Assembly: GCF_003691585.1 (NCBI RefSeq) | Contig: NZ_CP033169.1 | Location: 806,001-870,000 of the forward strand | Length of the DNA: 64,000 nt | Direction of reading: 5' to 3' | From: Biomaibacter acetigenes | GTDB lineage: Bacteria > Bacillota > Thermosediminibacteria > Thermosediminibacterales > Tepidanaerobacteraceae | Shown here: in pieces, positions 2,631 through 9,998 of the stretch | How positions within the stretch are numbered: position 1 is the first letter of the stretch | How the letters are laid out: every line of letters begins with the position of its first letter | The notes under the pieces: generated by a model | Seen by the model: the letters and a program-made list of their open reading frames with translations, nothing else | Databases searched by the model: none | What the model was told of the DNA's origin: nothing | Position numbers and translations under genes: made by a program

Positions 2631-3461
2631 ATGAGGAAGATTGATTTTGGAGAAAAGCTTTCCAATACTTTATACCTACCCTTCGCCTTTTTGGCCATGG
2701 TGGCCATGATCATACCCGTATATATTCTCTTTAAGGTGTCAGTGAGTTCTCCCCAGGAGATTTTGACCGCTCATCCTTCATTTCTTATAAGAAGTTTTAC
2801 TTTTAATCATTGGAGGCAGATTTTAAGATCAGGAGGATTATGGGCTCCTTTAACAAAAAGTTTCCTGGTGGCTACCATTACTACCGCTGCAGCAGTGGTA
2901 ATAGCTGCTCCGGCAGCTTATGTAATAGCCCGGATGCCTTCCAAAATCAAATACGCCATCGTGCTTTCACTGTTTCTCTTGAGAATGTTTCCTGAAGTGG
3001 CCATAGCGCTGTCTATTTCGGTACAGTTTTTAAAGTGGAATCTCATTGATACAAATATAGGACTTGTTATGGCTCACCTCATTTTAAACCTGCCCTTTGC
3101 CGCATGGATCCTGGTGGGAACTTTTGAGACTATTCCAAAAGATTTAGAAGAGGCTGCTCTGGTGGATGGAGCGGGAAAAGTCATGTCACTTTTAAAGATA
3201 ATCATGCCTCTGGCCATGCCGGGCATTGCGGTGGCAGCCATGTTTGTATGGCTTAACTCCTGGAATGAGTTTACCTATGCACTGTATCTTACCATGTCTA
3301 AAAGGACTCTTCCACTTCAAACATATTATTATGTGGTGAGAGGGGGGTGGTTTGACGCAGCTACTTACGCCACCATTCTTATGATACCGGTTTTGCTGGT
3401 AACATTCTTTTTGCAGAGGTACATGAAGGGGGGATATCTATCGGGAGCCGTTAAAGGTTAA
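2631..3461 (+). CDS. Sugar ABC transporter permease (MalG-like)
   Basis: 276 residues with six membrane segments. The MalG-type EAA motif is seen as DLEEAALVDGAGKVMSLLKI followed by MPLAMPGIAV near residues 180-205. The C-terminus (YMKGGYLSGAVKG) is typical of CUT1 inner-membrane subunits. The start lies 1 base after the stop of the MalF-like gene, with GGGGAGGAG as ribosome binding site inside that gene. It pairs with 1772-2629 and uses the binding protein encoded next. Confidence 0.92.
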   Translation: MRKIDFGEKLSNTLYLPFAFLAMVAMIIPVYILFKVSVSSPQEILTAHPSFLIRSFTFNHWRQILRSGGLWAPLTKSFLVATITTAAAVVIAAPAAYVIARMPSKIKYAIVLSLFLLRMFPEVAIALSISVQFLKWNLIDTNIGLVMAHLILNLPFAAWILVGTFETIPKDLEEAALVDGAGKVMSLLKIIMPLAMPGIAVAAMFVWLNSWNEFTYALYLTMSKRTLPLQTYYYVVRGGWFDAATYATILMIPVLLVTFFLQRYMKGGYLSGAVKG

Positions 3462-3503
3462 AACTTATACTATCACAAAAAATTAAAAGTGGGGGTTTTA
3501 AGA

Positions 3504-4748
3504 GTGAATAAAAACATTTTAGGTAAGATTTTGGTTATGGCGATCATCGCCTCTCTGGTAGTTACAATGGTAGTGGGGTGCGGCAGTAAAGGAGTTTCCG
3601 ATGCAAGGAAAAAAGTGCTTAAGGTATCTATGGGCCTGGCTGAAGAGGAATGGAAAGTCATGAGGGAAGATATATTCCCGGATTTTGAAAAAAAATATGG
3701 AGTAAAAATAGAGCCGGTCCAGATGGAAGCCGGAGATGCGGTTAAAAAGCTGGAGTCCATGCATAAAGCCAATGCCATGGATATAGACCTTATAACTCAG
3801 GACAATATGCAGCTGGCGCCGCTGGTTGATAAAGGGCTGATGGAAGACCTTTCTTCCTATAGAGATATGATACCCAAGGAGGTAATCCCGGCGCTGGTCC
3901 CGGTGGGTGAGTTTAGCGGAAAACTTTACTTTATGCCCTACAGGCCCAATGTGGAAATTACTTTTTATAACGAGAAAAAGTTTAATGAATATGGTTTAAA
4001 ACCGCCCACCAACTGGGAAGAACTTTTACAAGTGGCCAGGACTTTTAAGGAAAAGGAAGGCATGGGCAGGGTGGTAATCAAAGAGAATCTTGGCCCTGAC
4101 AGCACCATTCATATGTTTGACCTCATAAGATCAGCCGGAGGAGATCCTGTAGTACTAAACGATGAAGGCTCAGTTAAAGCCTTTACATTCCTGAAAGAGT
4201 TACAACCTTATCTGTCACCCGAGTCCAAGAAAGCCGACTGGAATACTCCCAATCAATATCTAGCAACCGATAGCGCCTATTTGATCCAGAACTGGCCCTT
4301 CACTTCCGTTGTGGTGGTAAAAGACGGGGGCAAGAAGGAGATTAAAGCATATCATGGTTGGAGCGGCCCCGTAAAGGAATCACATGTGCTGGGTGGAGAG
4401 GTCATCGGCATACCCAAAAACGCCCCCAACAAGGAAATGGCCGTTAAATTTATGGAATATCTCATGAGCAAAGAAGTGCAGGAAAAACTGACATCGAAGC
4501 TGGGCTGGCCTTCAATGAGGACCGATGCCTACGGAAAGGTTGAAGATTGGCAGAAACCATACTTTGAGGCTGTGAATGAAGCTTTAAAATATGCTGAACC
4601 CAGGCCCAACCTAACATACTGGGCCGATGTAGATAAAGCTGTAAACAGTGCCTTAAGGGAGATAATCTTTGAGGGCAAGGATATAAAGGCTACCCTCGAT
4701 AAATATCATGATGCCATAGAACAGGCAAAAAAATCTGCCGGCCAATAG
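3504..4748 (+). CDS. Sugar ABC transporter solute-binding lipoprotein
   Basis: 414 residues from the GTG at 3504. That start is chosen over the upstream GTG at 3489 because GGGGG at 3491-3495 gives proper spacing and the protein then begins MNKNILGK, a good signal peptide. The lipobox is VVGC near residues 24-27, so a lipid-anchored extracellular protein is expected. The rest is a family 1 extracellular solute-binding fold (MPYRPNVEITFYNEKKFNEY, PPTNWEELL, EVIGIPKNAPNKEMAVKFM). It delivers an oligosaccharide to the two permeases upstream. The ligand is probably a glucose disaccharide, given the GH65 enzyme that follows. Confidence 0.92.
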   Translation: MNKNILGKILVMAIIASLVVTMVVGCGSKGVSDARKKVLKVSMGLAEEEWKVMREDIFPDFEKKYGVKIEPVQMEAGDAVKKLESMHKANAMDIDLITQDNMQLAPLVDKGLMEDLSSYRDMIPKEVIPALVPVGEFSGKLYFMPYRPNVEITFYNEKKFNEYGLKPPTNWEELLQVARTFKEKEGMGRVVIKENLGPDSTIHMFDLIRSAGGDPVVLNDEGSVKAFTFLKELQPYLSPESKKADWNTPNQYLATDSAYLIQNWPFTSVVVVKDGGKKEIKAYHGWSGPVKESHVLGGEVIGIPKNAPNKEMAVKFMEYLMSKEVQEKLTSKLGWPSMRTDAYGKVEDWQKPYFEAVNEALKYAEPRPNLTYWADVDKAVNSALREIIFEGKDIKATLDKYHDAIEQAKKSAGQ

Positions 4749-4823: not shown

Positions 4824-7211
4824 ATGAACACAAGCAATGGACGTAAAATCATTTACCCTTTTGATGAATGGCAAATTAAGGAAACTGAATTTAACATAGG
4901 TACAAACTACAGAAATGAAACCATTTTTACCACGGCCAACGGATATATGGGCATGCGGGGGAACCTTGAGGAGGGGTACAGCGGCCCGGAAAATACCACG
5001 TTTAACGCCGTTTACATCAATGGATTCTATGAAGAGTATGACATCGACTACCCGGAGGGTGGGTACGGACTTGCCCAAAAAGGCCAGGCTATGGTCAAAG
5101 TAGCCGATGCCAGGATGGTCAAGCTTATGATAGATGACGAACCCCTTGATTTACTTAAGGGTAAAATCCGCTCGTACGAAAGAATTTTACACATGAAAAA
5201 AGGTACTGTGGAAAGAAATTTCACATGGGAATCACCCGGGGGTAGGATAGTGGACGTTAGCATCAAAAGGATGGTTTCATTGACCAGGCCTCATCTTGCA
5301 TTCATATTTTTTTCAGTGGTACCTGTTAATTTTGACGGCCAGCTGAAATTTATCTCTTTGATAAACGGTGATATACAAAATAGCCGGTATGACAAAAAAG
5401 ACGTCGAAAAAGACGTCAGGGTTGGAGCCGGTATCGAGGGCAAAGTATTCCGGACCATAAAAACCGTTGCGGATAATACCATGGGATTTATGGTCCAGGA
5501 AACCAACCGGAGCGGTTTTAAACTTGCCTGCGCAGTAGAGCATAAGATATCTTGCGGCTTAGATCATTCTGTTTTAACTGAGGCAAAAGGTGACATGGTC
5601 CGGGTGGATATAACCGTAAAAGCCTCAAAAGGGAAATGTTACAATTTATCTAAATACATTTCATATTATACATCCCGGGATGACGTGGAAAATATCGAGG
5701 AATCGGCAATAAACGAAGTATCCAGGGCAAAACAGGATGGCATAAAGGTAATGGAGGATGAGCAAAAAAACTTTCTGGAAGCTTTTTGGGATGATGCCGA
5801 TATAGTAGTTGAAGGAGATGCCGCTGCTGAGCAGGGGATTCGCTACAGCCTTTTTTCGCTGCTTCAATCGGCGGGCAGGGACAAAAAGACCGGTATAGCG
5901 GCCAAGGGCCTCACGGGTGAAGGCTATGGAGGTCAGTATTTCTGGGATACAGAGATATACATGCTGCCGTTTTTCATATATACAAGGCCCGAAACGGCAA
6001 AGAATCTATTGCTTCAGCGCTACAGAACACTGGATGCCGCCAGAGCCAGGGCATTGGAGCTGGGGCATAAGGGAGCCCTTTTTCCATGGAGGACTATAGA
6101 CGGTCCGGAATGTTCCGCATACTTCCCGGCAGGGACCGCCCAGTACCATATAAATGCAGATATAGTCTATGCTATTAAACAATATGTAAAAGCAACTCAA
6201 GATCAGGAATTTCTATATAATTTTGGAGCCGAAATAATTTTTGAAACGGCCAGATTCTGGCAGGACCTGGGGTCATATATCCTTCTAAAGGGGAATAAGT
6301 TTTGCATCAATTGTGTCACTGGCCCCGATGAATATACCGCACTGGTGGATAACAATGCATACACCAACTATATGGCAAAAATGAATTTGGAGTATGCCGT
6401 TGAAGTTGCGAAAAAAATTAAAATGGAACGCCCCCAACTTTATGCAGCCCTGGCATCAAAAATTGGTCTTAAAGATGAGGAAATTTGCCGTTGGGAAAAG
6501 GCGGCCAGGAATATGTATCTTCCTTTTTCCGAAGAACTCGGTATTATTCCCCAGGACGACAGTTTCCTCTATAAAAAGAAGATCGACATAGATCTGATAC
6601 CGGAAGATCAGTTTCCGCTGCTTTTACACTGGCATTATCTCAATATATACAGGCACCAATTATGTAAGCAGCCCGATGTGCTTCTTTTGATGTTGCTGAT
6701 GAGAGAAAAATTTACCCCGGAAGAAATTAAGAAAAACTATGACTACTATGAACCTATAACTACCCATGATTCATCCCTTTCTCCTGCGGTTTTCAGCATA
6801 CTGGCAAAAGAGATAGGTTATGACAGCAAGGCCTATAAATATTTTATCCAAACGGCCCGTATGGATCTGGATGATTATAACGGCAATACGAAGGATGGTA
6901 TCCATGCAGCCGGTATGGGGGGCACCTGGCTTGCCGCCGTCTTTGGATTTGGCGGGATGAAAGTTGGAGACGGAGAACTTTGCTTTTCGCCGAAACTTCC
7001 GGTTCACTGGGATAGCATGACCTTTAAAGTGAGATATAGGGGCAGGAAACTCCTGGTAAAAGTGCAAAAGAGTGATATAAGTTTTACCCTTATGGAAGGG
7101 GACCCGTTAAAAATACGGTGTTTAGAAGAGGAGATGTTTTTGGAAAAAGGGGCCATGGTAAAAAAGGTATATATTTCCGGGGGGCATAAAAAATGCACTA
7201 CGGCGGAGTGA
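4824..7211 (+). CDS. Glycoside hydrolase family 65 disaccharide phosphorylase
   Basis: 795 residues, the normal length for maltose, trehalose or kojibiose phosphorylases of GH65. The (alpha/alpha)6-barrel motifs are present: QYFWDTEIYMLPFF near residue 371, GPDEYTALVDNNAYTN from residue 500 (Glu503 is the expected general acid), and the phosphate-binding segments HDSSLS (648-653) and GIHAAGMGGTW. GH65 phosphorylases split an alpha-glucosyl disaccharide with inorganic phosphate into beta-glucose-1-phosphate and glucose, by inversion. The next gene overlaps by 19 bases and starts with a beta-phosphoglucomutase domain, which fits this product. Which disaccharide is used cannot be read from the sequence. 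A soluble cytoplasmic enzyme is expected because there is no signal peptide. Confidence 0.93.
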   Translation: MNTSNGRKIIYPFDEWQIKETEFNIGTNYRNETIFTTANGYMGMRGNLEEGYSGPENTTFNAVYINGFYEEYDIDYPEGGYGLAQKGQAMVKVADARMVKLMIDDEPLDLLKGKIRSYERILHMKKGTVERNFTWESPGGRIVDVSIKRMVSLTRPHLAFIFFSVVPVNFDGQLKFISLINGDIQNSRYDKKDVEKDVRVGAGIEGKVFRTIKTVADNTMGFMVQETNRSGFKLACAVEHKISCGLDHSVLTEAKGDMVRVDITVKASKGKCYNLSKYISYYTSRDDVENIEESAINEVSRAKQDGIKVMEDEQKNFLEAFWDDADIVVEGDAAAEQGIRYSLFSLLQSAGRDKKTGIAAKGLTGEGYGGQYFWDTEIYMLPFFIYTRPETAKNLLLQRYRTLDAARARALELGHKGALFPWRTIDGPECSAYFPAGTAQYHINADIVYAIKQYVKATQDQEFLYNFGAEIIFETARFWQDLGSYILLKGNKFCINCVTGPDEYTALVDNNAYTNYMAKMNLEYAVEVAKKIKMERPQLYAALASKIGLKDEEICRWEKAARNMYLPFSEELGIIPQDDSFLYKKKIDIDLIPEDQFPLLLHWHYLNIYRHQLCKQPDVLLLMLLMREKFTPEEIKKNYDYYEPITTHDSSLSPAVFSILAKEIGYDSKAYKYFIQTARMDLDDYNGNTKDGIHAAGMGGTWLAAVFGFGGMKVGDGELCFSPKLPVHWDSMTFKVRYRGRKLLVKVQKSDISFTLMEGDPLKIRCLEEEMFLEKGAMVKKVYISGGHKKCTTAE

Positions 7212-9886
7212 TTTTTGACCTGGACGGTGTCATCGCCGATACCGCCCGATTCCATTATGAAGCGTGGAAAAAACTGGCCTATGAATTGGGTATTTATTTT
7301 GATAAAAAAACAAATGAAAGACTTAAAGGAATCGGCAGGATGGAGTCCCTGGATATAATCCTCGAAAATAGCAACATTTCATATACTTTGGAACAAAAAA
7401 AGTATTATGCGGAAAAAAAGAACGAGTATTATAAACAGTTTATACAGACTCTAACACCTGACGATGTGCTGCCCGGTGTAAAGGAGCTCATGGAAATCCT
7501 GAAAAGAAAAGGTATAAAAACTGCTGTAGCTTCTGCCAGCAAAAACGCTCCTACAGTACTTAATAAGCTGGGAATAGCCTCCGAGTTTGACTATATCGTT
7601 GATGCGTCCAGGATCAGAAAAGGTAAGCCCGATCCAGAATTATTCCTGACCGCCGCAATAAATATCGGTGTAGAGCCTTCCGAATGCATAGGTATAGAAG
7701 ATTCCGCAGCAGGCATCGAAGCCATTAAAAGGGCGGGCATGTTTGCCGTCGGCGTAGGGGACCCCAAGATACTTAAGAAAGCCGATATGGTATTAAAGGA
7801 CTTAAAAGACTATGGTAAAATCGTTGATATAATAAGTGAAAATATTACGATAAATAATGACAGGATATTTATCGTAACCGACGGTAAAGGAAATATAAAG
7901 GAAGACCGTTATGGACTGTTTTACAAAGATACCCGCTTTCTGTCAAAATATGACCTTGAAATTGACGGTAAAAAACCAAAATTGTCCAAGATAACATCCG
8001 AAAAGAATTTTTCAAAGGAAATATCAATTGAATACAAAGAAGACGATAATGATCGTATCTTACAAATGTACAGGAAATCCTTTATATATGAAAACACATT
8101 TTATGAGAGTTTTGTTTTAAAAAATTGCGGATTAAAAACAGAAATCGCAAACGTTACACTGGATCTTGACGCGGATTTTAAAGATATATTCGACGTAAGG
8201 GGCTTTGCCGGGGGTATATACGGATCAAAGCCCGGGGTTCAAAGGGAAGCCCGACAGGTGGTTTTTGAATATACCGGTCTTGATGGGGTTTTAAGAAAGA
8301 CTACGGTTCAGTTTAACCAAGATGCACGTTACGAGAAAAATAAGGTGGTTTTCATGGCAGAGCTTCCCCCAAATAAAGTTTTCACGTTCGAAGTCCATGT
8401 TAACGTAACGGTCGGAAATGAAAAAAAGGCGACAACCCTGGACTTTTATGAAGGACTCAAAACAGTTGAAAAAAGCTTTAACGAATGGAGTATGGAATGT
8501 GCCGAGGTTATTACCGATAATGAACGGTTTAATTCCCTGTACAAACGAAGTATTGAAGATTTAAGATCACTTCTGTTAAATTATGAAGGTTATCGCATCC
8601 CGGCGGCCGGCATCCCATGGTTTGCAGTGCCTTTCGGTAGGGACAGCATAGTTTGCGCGGTACAATCTCTAATGATAAACCCCGGTATTGCAAGGGATGT
8701 GCTGCTGCTTGCGGCAAAATATCAGGGCTTGAAATTAGACGGCAGGAGCGAAGAAGAACCTGGCAAGATATTTCATGAGATCCGAGAAGGTGAGTTCACC
8801 AATACAGGCATGGTGCCTTTCGGCCCCTATTATGGCACCCATGATGCCACACCGCTTTTTTTGGTGCTTCTTCATAAGTATTACAAATGGACCGGTGATA
8901 TAGAGTTTTTAAGAAAGATGCTGCCTGCGGCGGAAAAAGCCCTGGAATGGGTGATATCCTATGGAGACAGGGACAATGACGGCTTTCTTGAATACATGAG
9001 GGCCGATGAAAAAGGTTTTACAAACCAGGGATGGAAGGATTCGGAGGACTCGGTGAGAGCAAGCGACGGCAAAATTGCGTCACCTCCCATAGCCCTTGCG
9101 GAGATTCAGGGATATGCTTATGATGCATATATGGGCATGGCCGAACTTTATAAGATATTGAAAGATACCGATCCCGGGAACATTAAAGATAAAGTTGAGG
9201 CACTCAAGAATAAAGCCGCTGCCTTAAGACGAAATTTCCATAAAGCCTTCTGGATGGAGGATAAAAAATATTTTGCCGAAGCCCTGGACAGGAATAAGAG
9301 GCAGGTGGATTCCATAACATCAAATCCGGGCCACTGTCTGTGGTCGGGGATTATCGATGGAGTCTATGCAAAATATGTGGCGGACAGATTGATCTCACCA
9401 GAGATGTTTTCGGGGTGGGGCATCAGGACCATGAGTTCAAAGGAGGCCGCCTATGATCCGGAAAGTTACCACAACGGCTCGGTATGGCCCCACGACAACT
9501 CCCTTATCGCCCTGGGATTTTCAAGATACGGGTTCTGGGAGCATCTAAAGGTGGTTTTCGATGCTCTGCTGGAAGCTTCGGCAGGATTTCACGGCCGCCT
9601 GCCGGAACTTTTCTGCGGCTATGATAAGAGAGAAAGGCCGCTTACGCAGTACCCTGTGGCCTGCAGCCCCCAGGCTTGGGCCGCCGCCTCACCTTTTGCC
9701 CTATTAGAAGCCATCCTGGGCATAAGAGTTGACGCCCAAAAGGGCATCGTTTCTCTGGACCCGACCCTGCCTGACAGCATAAACCATATTACTGTAAAAA
9801 GAATGCGGGTGGGAGAAAAACTATACGATTTTGAAGTGGAAAGGAAAAACGGGAAGGTAGAGTATAGTTTTAAAAAAGGCGCTTGA
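7193..9886 (+). CDS. Fusion: beta-phosphoglucomutase + amylo-alpha-1,6-glucosidase-type hydrolase
   Basis: One uninterrupted frame of 897 residues. Residues 1 to about 215 are a complete HAD-type beta-phosphoglucomutase: FDLDGVIAD with Asp9 and Asp11, VASASKNA, and GIEDSAAGIEAIKRAGM. From about residue 220 a second protein begins. It has a glycogen-debranching N-terminal domain (IFIVTDGKGNIKEDRYGLFY), then an (alpha/alpha)6-barrel with GIPWFAVPFGRDS from residue 473, GWKDSEDS from about 613, and SVWPHDNSLIALG. Separate proteins of both kinds are common, but the fusion is unusual. The first half would turn beta-glucose-1-phosphate from the GH65 enzyme into glucose-6-phosphate. The second would hydrolyse an alpha-glucosidic bond, substrate unknown. 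The gene overlaps the GH65 gene by 19 bases and ends inside a terminator. Confidence 0.9.
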   Translation: MHYGGVIFDLDGVIADTARFHYEAWKKLAYELGIYFDKKTNERLKGIGRMESLDIILENSNISYTLEQKKYYAEKKNEYYKQFIQTLTPDDVLPGVKELMEILKRKGIKTAVASASKNAPTVLNKLGIASEFDYIVDASRIRKGKPDPELFLTAAINIGVEPSECIGIEDSAAGIEAIKRAGMFAVGVGDPKILKKADMVLKDLKDYGKIVDIISENITINNDRIFIVTDGKGNIKEDRYGLFYKDTRFLSKYDLEIDGKKPKLSKITSEKNFSKEISIEYKEDDNDRILQMYRKSFIYENTFYESFVLKNCGLKTEIANVTLDLDADFKDIFDVRGFAGGIYGSKPGVQREARQVVFEYTGLDGVLRKTTVQFNQDARYEKNKVVFMAELPPNKVFTFEVHVNVTVGNEKKATTLDFYEGLKTVEKSFNEWSMECAEVITDNERFNSLYKRSIEDLRSLLLNYEGYRIPAAGIPWFAVPFGRDSIVCAVQSLMINPGIARDVLLLAAKYQGLKLDGRSEEEPGKIFHEIREGEFTNTGMVPFGPYYGTHDATPLFLVLLHKYYKWTGDIEFLRKMLPAAEKALEWVISYGDRDNDGFLEYMRADEKGFTNQGWKDSEDSVRASDGKIASPPIALAEIQGYAYDAYMGMAELYKILKDTDPGNIKDKVEALKNKAAALRRNFHKAFWMEDKKYFAEALDRNKRQVDSITSNPGHCLWSGIIDGVYAKYVADRLISPEMFSGWGIRTMSSKEAAYDPESYHNGSVWPHDNSLIALGFSRYGFWEHLKVVFDALLEASAGFHGRLPELFCGYDKRERPLTQYPVACSPQAWAAASPFALLEAILGIRVDAQKGIVSLDPTLPDSINHITVKRMRVGEKLYDFEVERKNGKVEYSFKKGA

Positions 9887-9902
9887 AGGTGGCGCCTTTT
9901 TT
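9872..9902 (+). terminator. Rho-independent terminator of the sugar operon
   Basis: AAAAAAGGCGC (9872-9882) pairs with GCGCCTTTTTT (9892-9902). The left arm lies within the last codons of the fusion gene. An A-run at 9967-9981 follows downstream. It could also act weakly for the gene on the other strand. Confidence 0.85.
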
Positions 9903-9998
9903 AAAACATTGTCATTTCTCTAAATCATTACCAACATCTTTGTCAGTCTCTAATCTTAAAATCAGAAAAAAAAAAAAAAGAGAGGCTTGTACCTCTCT

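Follow-up and report, generated by a model that had tools for sequence, protein, structure and literature searches.

A probable, lineage-specific fusion of a β-phosphoglucomutase with a GDE-type α-glucosidase at the end of a putative trehalose operon in Biomaibacter acetigenes

In the window (the whole stretch of 64,000 nucleotides of Biomaibacter acetigenes DNA that was analysed, contig NZ_CP033169.1, positions 806,001 to 870,000), a single open reading frame encodes both a β-phosphoglucomutase (bPGM) and a GDE-like protein. This raises the question of whether the two enzymes are indeed one polypeptide in the organism, how such a protein could have arisen and which sugar it helps to degrade.

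The operon and its terminal gene

The frame is the last gene of an operon with the order LacI, permease, permease, sugar-binding protein (SBP), GH65 and bPGM::GDE. The features are, in window coordinates:

567–580, no strand: LacI-family operator CGTAAACGGTTACG, 5′ of the regulator gene; exact palindrome-like site
674–1696, + strand: LacI-family regulator with TTG start (PF00356 and Peripla_BP; 70–75% identical in syntenic operons)
1716–1729, no strand: second operator CGTAAACGGTTACG, exact site in the gap between regulator and permease
1772–2629, + strand: ABC sugar permease 1 (PF00528; 74–82% identical in the Thermoanaerobacter-type G270 and in G024)
2631–3461, + strand: ABC sugar permease 2 (PF00528; 71–87% identical in syntenic operons)
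3504–4748, + strand: ABC sugar-binding protein (PF13416/PF01547; 79–85% identical in syntenic operons)
4824–7211, + strand: GH65 phosphorylase, most likely a trehalose phosphorylase (EC 2.4.1.64) (PF03632, 412 bits; loop 3 WRTIDGPECSAYFPAG)
7193–9886, + strand: bPGM::GDE fusion gene, 897 aa, a single uninterrupted frame with ATG start
7193–7834, + strand: bPGM half, residues 1–214 (TIGR01990; in-frame homology to residue about 213)
7832–7849, + strand: junction, residues 214–219, with no canonical start codon in frame; a GTG at 7836 lies out of frame, A-run at 7840–7843
7850–9883, + strand: GDE_N_bis β-sandwich and (α/α)6 barrel, residues 220–897 (Pfam and model)
9038–9040, + strand: candidate acid D616, unchanged in all 19 sequences when the GDE part is aligned (as D400), putatively catalytic
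9605–9607, + strand: candidate base E805, invariant in the same alignment (as E589), putatively catalytic
9867–9907, + strand: intrinsic terminator, overlapped by the stop codon of bPGM::GDE (17-bp stem, then a T-rich tail)

Exact copies of CGTAAACGGTTACG occur in the 3.40 Mb genome only at the two listed sites, which flank the regulator, and sites of this type are kept at equivalent positions in three relatives (G024, G019 and G020). Among the possible starts of the sugar-binding protein, 3504 comes with the best ribosome-binding site (SD energy −9.6), the longest ORF beginning at 3489. Beyond the operon, at about 9965–9980, a run of approximately 14 A adjoins the hairpin that terminates the converging gene and is likely a site of assembly length errors.

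A sequence-only reading had described this frame as a complete bPGM with Asp9/Asp11 joined to a GDE-like protein, in a gene overlapping the GH65 gene, and this description was confirmed; the overlap amounts to 19 nt. The bPGM half scored 272.1 bits against TIGR01990 (cut-off 189.4), with residues 5–189 matching model positions 3–187 of 187; being above the equivalog cut-off across the full model, the domain is complete. The catalytic motifs DLDGV (9–13, Asp9/Asp11), KGKPDPE (143–149, K145) and GIEDSAAG (167–174, E169 and D170) are present, and the fold matches 4gib (TMt 0.87). With almost no linker in between, the GDE domains follow, likewise complete: PF14742 (GDE_N_bis) at residues 220–401 with 122.4 bits (gathering cut-off 22.1) and PF06202 (GDE_C) at 471–832 with 51.6 bits (gathering cut-off 21). 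As matches between sequence and profile, the domain scores of the fusion protein are far beyond chance.

From end to end, an AlphaFold model of the GDE half alone (pLDDT 86) resembles 7vma, its nearest solved relative by sequence as well as in structure (TM 0.82/0.90). 7vma is the amylo-α-1,6-glucosidase of Thermococcus gammatolerans STB12 (PMC9142091) and has the candidate catalytic Asp and Glu motifs in common with the GDE half. It is, however, an archaeal stand-alone enzyme acting on branched maltodextrin and only about 31% identical. In the model of the whole fusion both domains are confident, while residues 217–248 have a low confidence, which may be due to the poor mixed alignment. The genome is closed, and the GDE of the window is its only GDE and the bPGM its only close bPGM, all remaining bPGM matches being HAD proteins with 26–28% identity.

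Real fusion or assembly artefact

A frameshift near 7840–7860, already considered in the sequence-only reading, was found to be conceivable in one specific form: a single extra A at 7840–7843 restores two genes, but leaves the GDE gene without a ribosome-binding site. With this A, which would then be missing from the assembled run, the bPGM would end with ...DIISEKYYDK and the GDE, starting from the GTG at 7836 and overlapping by 23 nt, would begin with MKNITINNDRIF, so that two well-formed proteins with plausible ends on both sides result. Two separate, overlapping genes are also what the syntenic relative G024 has.

Furthermore, the assembly contains homopolymer indels in other places, affecting no fewer than three conserved genes. 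They were found by comparing genes of relatives with 464 kb of this genome, in stretches and with about 74 kb of coding sequence covered, in which three conserved genes turned out to be broken by single-base homopolymer indels (roughly one per 18 kb compared). The pattern suggests that these are assembly errors rather than pseudogenes. Affected are an RmlD-like reductase with two indel sites (L168:12926-13798; about 962,900-963,800 of the genome), an ABC sugar permease broken at a T5 run (L155:3306-4149) and an aldehyde ferredoxin oxidoreductase broken at an A6 run (L166:15359-17150). Two more apparent frameshifts (L163 and L154) were dismissed as apparent antisense noise, a reading that is clearer for L163 than for L154.

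Against an artefact speaks the GTG at 7836 itself, which with −0.7 kcal/mol lacks a ribosome-binding site, whereas such a site is present in nearly all coupled genes of this genome and in each of the seven GDE relatives that were checked. The SD energies of 71 coupled genes have a median of −11.2 kcal/mol, with 1.4% being weaker than −4, and in the full set of 346 genes the share weaker than −2 kcal/mol is 2.3%, a comparison that leans somewhat to strong sites since the best start per gene was taken. About a third of random stretches show a site as weak as that of the GTG. In addition, most of the error sites found are longer than this run of 4–5 A. Since about 7% of random in-frame junctions are equally repairable, repairability alone is weak evidence. 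Overall, the likelihoods of the missing ribosome-binding site and of the repairable junction more or less offset each other. It is the prior that tips the balance towards a real fusion: at this error rate, roughly estimated, one would expect well under one artefactual fusion per genome, as opposed to a few real lineage-specific ones. Taken together, we regard the fusion as probably real in the organism and a missing A as a considerably less probable, yet not negligible, explanation. A splitting indel 5′ of position 7831 was ruled out, as the bPGM homology stays in the fused frame up to residue 213 or so. Should the fusion prove to be an artefact, it would illustrate the need for read-level checks when a fusion is seen in a single genome and the assembly has homopolymer errors.

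Relatives and the possible origin of the fusion

GDEs of this family are present in 57 of 398 genomes of the phylum (the genome of the window counted), and apart from the frame in the window (898 codons) none of them lies in a stop-to-stop frame of more than 812 codons. The two-domain order was thus not found in any other of these genomes. Two more searches at class level (in 22 and 37 genomes, partly overlapping) did not yield the fusion either, nor did the plasmids of PLSDB, in which no record covers 80% of the fusion protein. Outside the phylum the GDE scan of genome contigs took in 11 loci. Judged by these searches the fusion appears to be rare, with one genome only so far, and the order bPGM–GDE does not seem to be an established architecture. 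Nor is the GDE restricted to GH65 operons; in the relatives surveyed it is usually found with no GH65 in the vicinity.

The most informative relative is G024, a member of the same class, whose operon (L090) contains all seven components in identical order (57–87% identical). There, in contrast to the window, bPGM and GDE are separate genes which overlap by ATGA, and the GDE has a ribosome-binding site. In an alignment of the junction DNA the window is shorter by about 43 nt, among them the stop codon as well as ribosome-binding site and start codon, and in a tree of GDEs the two sequences form a pair (support 100/98). Probably a deletion in a G024-like arrangement removed the bPGM stop together with the ribosome-binding site and start of the GDE and thereby joined both genes.

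Other relatives are arranged differently. In G018, G019 and G020 a separate bPGM lies directly after the GH65 as the last gene of the operon, and the GDE belongs to another operon (LacI, GDE, binding protein and permeases; in G020 without transporter genes) with the operator CCAAAACGTTTTGG. In G018 these two operons are 2.5 kb apart. This arrangement is a less likely direct precursor than that of G024, because it would require the loss of a second LacI and of the intervening genes and because its GDE is more distant. To the GDE-specific binding protein of G019 there is no close relative in the genome of the window, in G024 or in G020. Stand-alone GDE operons (L014:6892, L025:9473, L027:9777) carry their own LacI and CCAAAACGTTTTGG, which is distinct from the CGTAAACGGTTACG of the trehalose operon. 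G197 contains GH65, an SDR gene, GDE and bPGM, all separate and in a different order, and in the genus relative G001 the operon is absent.

The sequence-only reading had named many genomes with separate genes at the same junction as a refutation, and this was borne out in part, by the separate genes of G024. In G018–G020 the bPGM ends the operon and the GDE lies elsewhere. Since the genes are separate in G024 and the GDE is located elsewhere in G018–G020, what the fusion represents is a local innovation, not a coupled pathway that relatives conserve, and for the most part it reshuffles known components locally. We consider it somewhat more probable than not that a recent and lineage-specific fusion of a bPGM with a GDE-type α-glucosidase terminates a LacI-controlled trehalose operon. 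If real, this gene fusion would have been caught close to its origin, with relatives of the class showing not only the unfused neighbours but also an alternative fusion of bPGM with GH65 and the hydrolase in a regulon of its own with a different operator.

This alternative fusion is found, for instance, in G025 and G029 as frames of 999 aa. Like the fusion of the window, it covalently joins the bPGM to an enzyme of the same operon. The bPGM is, however, located C-terminal to the phosphorylase making its substrate, while in the window it stands N-terminal of a hydrolase, an enzyme not producing this substrate. In G025 (L109:4344-8400) the GH65-bPGM fusion is followed 3′ by a GDE of which only the N-terminal part and the C-terminal tail are left, the catalytic middle being gone. 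Read from its frames, this locus is a different fusion along with a decaying hydrolase in the same operon.

The sugar handled by the operon and the roles of the two halves

The sequence-only reading had proposed a dedicated pathway for a branched α-glucoside, with kojibiose and nigerose among the sugars named; trehalose is most likely instead (PMC8537180; PMC9834392). Loop 3 of the GH65 reads WRTIDGPECSAYFPAGTAQYHINAD, with SAY at the HNE position (ECSAYFPAG), and SAY in this loop is the motif of the trehalose phosphorylase of T. brockii (PMC8537180). Trehalose-type GH65 enzymes are further characterized by six correlated positions, TRIGPP at CsKP 64, 392, 394, 402, 416 and 585 (PMC8537180). 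R392 and I394 of the operon's enzyme fit, whereas position 64 was aligned by eye to an Ala in place of the Thr of trehalose phosphorylases, and positions 402, 416 and 585 fall into a gapped or unsure alignment. Kojibiose or nigerose were rejected as first-choice substrates, the kojibiose-type loop (WES...TPK) being present in a neighbouring paralogue of L106 and not here.

In G270 (L107) regulator, transporter and GH65 are found in the same order with 63–79% identity (transporter: 71–79%), adjoining a kojibiose-phosphorylase cluster with a bPGM. Its array of KojP, bPGM, LacI, ABC transporter and TreP matches, and on this basis it appears to be the Thermoanaerobacter trehalose locus, whose ABC genes enabled growth of T. 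kivui on trehalose (PMC9834392). That locus shares with the window the order of regulator, two permeases, binding protein and GH65, but differs in having its bPGM upstream in the KojP cluster and in containing neither a GDE nor a fusion. Owing to the SAY of loop 3, the synteny and the transporter identity with the Thermoanaerobacter locus, trehalose appears most likely as substrate of the GH65.

The pathway would then start with the import of trehalose by a CUT1 ABC transporter whose ATPase subunit would be encoded elsewhere. The GH65 would convert trehalose and Pi to glucose and β-Glc1P, and the N-terminal bPGM half is predicted to turn β-Glc1P into glucose 6-phosphate. The C-terminal half, which we take from its fold and clan to be an inverting exo-α-glucosidase, would most likely release free glucose from α-1,6 or similar linkages of short imported oligosaccharides, a putative bond specificity derived from the identity to 7vma. 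Consequences of the fusion would be co-production at equal dose and a fixed ratio of the halves.

The sequence-only reading had instead suggested a channelling of products, by which the fused protein would pass intermediates of one branched α-glucoside between a phosphorolytic and a hydrolytic site. The covalent linkage and the shared operon would fit with this. Yet the product of neither half (Glc6P and free glucose, respectively) is a substrate of the other, the GH65 as the source of β-Glc1P lies outside of the fusion, and relatives manage with separate genes or with a bPGM fused to the GH65. Channelling is hence not supported and appears very improbable. As the halves share no intermediate, a fixed ratio of the two can be expected from the fusion, but no channelling.

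A GDE accompanies trehalose-type GH65 operons in the genome of the window, in G024 and in G197, as well as in the form of an internally deleted remnant in G025, and the genome of the window, G024 and G020 lack the GDE-specific binding protein. If real, the fusion would also point to an unassigned GDE subfamily recruited into trehalose operons. One might imagine that the GDE half trims imported trehalose-containing oligosaccharides and so exposes trehalose for the phosphorylase, the fusion being a bifunctional enzyme of an extended trehalose-oligosaccharide pathway, but we regard this as rather unlikely.

It is similarly doubtful that the operon serves another α-glucoside, such as nigerose or a glucosylated osmolyte, with GH65 and GDE attacking different members of a family of imported sugars. 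In Thermosediminibacter-type and other relatives the GDE comes with a separate transporter and a separate operator, CCAAAACGTTTTGG, and hence may natively act on a sugar other than trehalose, and part of the six specificity positions of the GH65 could not be placed in the alignment. On the other hand, the GH65 carries the SAY motif and the WRTI/PAG loop, and transporter and GH65 are syntenic with a locus shown to confer growth on trehalose. Trehalose accordingly remains the most likely substrate of the operon.

The neighbourhoods of GDEs in G019, G020, G069, G285 and on alphaproteobacterial plasmids offered no clue naming a sugar; the neighbours are a LacI with an ABC transporter or a GT4 glycosyltransferase, some near heat-shock genes. 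The plasmid-borne relatives (L110-L113; Bosea, Pelagibacterium and Rhizobium) lie directly behind the GT4 glycosyltransferase, two of the four near Hsp20 or chaperonin genes. This plasmid context hints at an α-glucoside that is made and degraded under stress.
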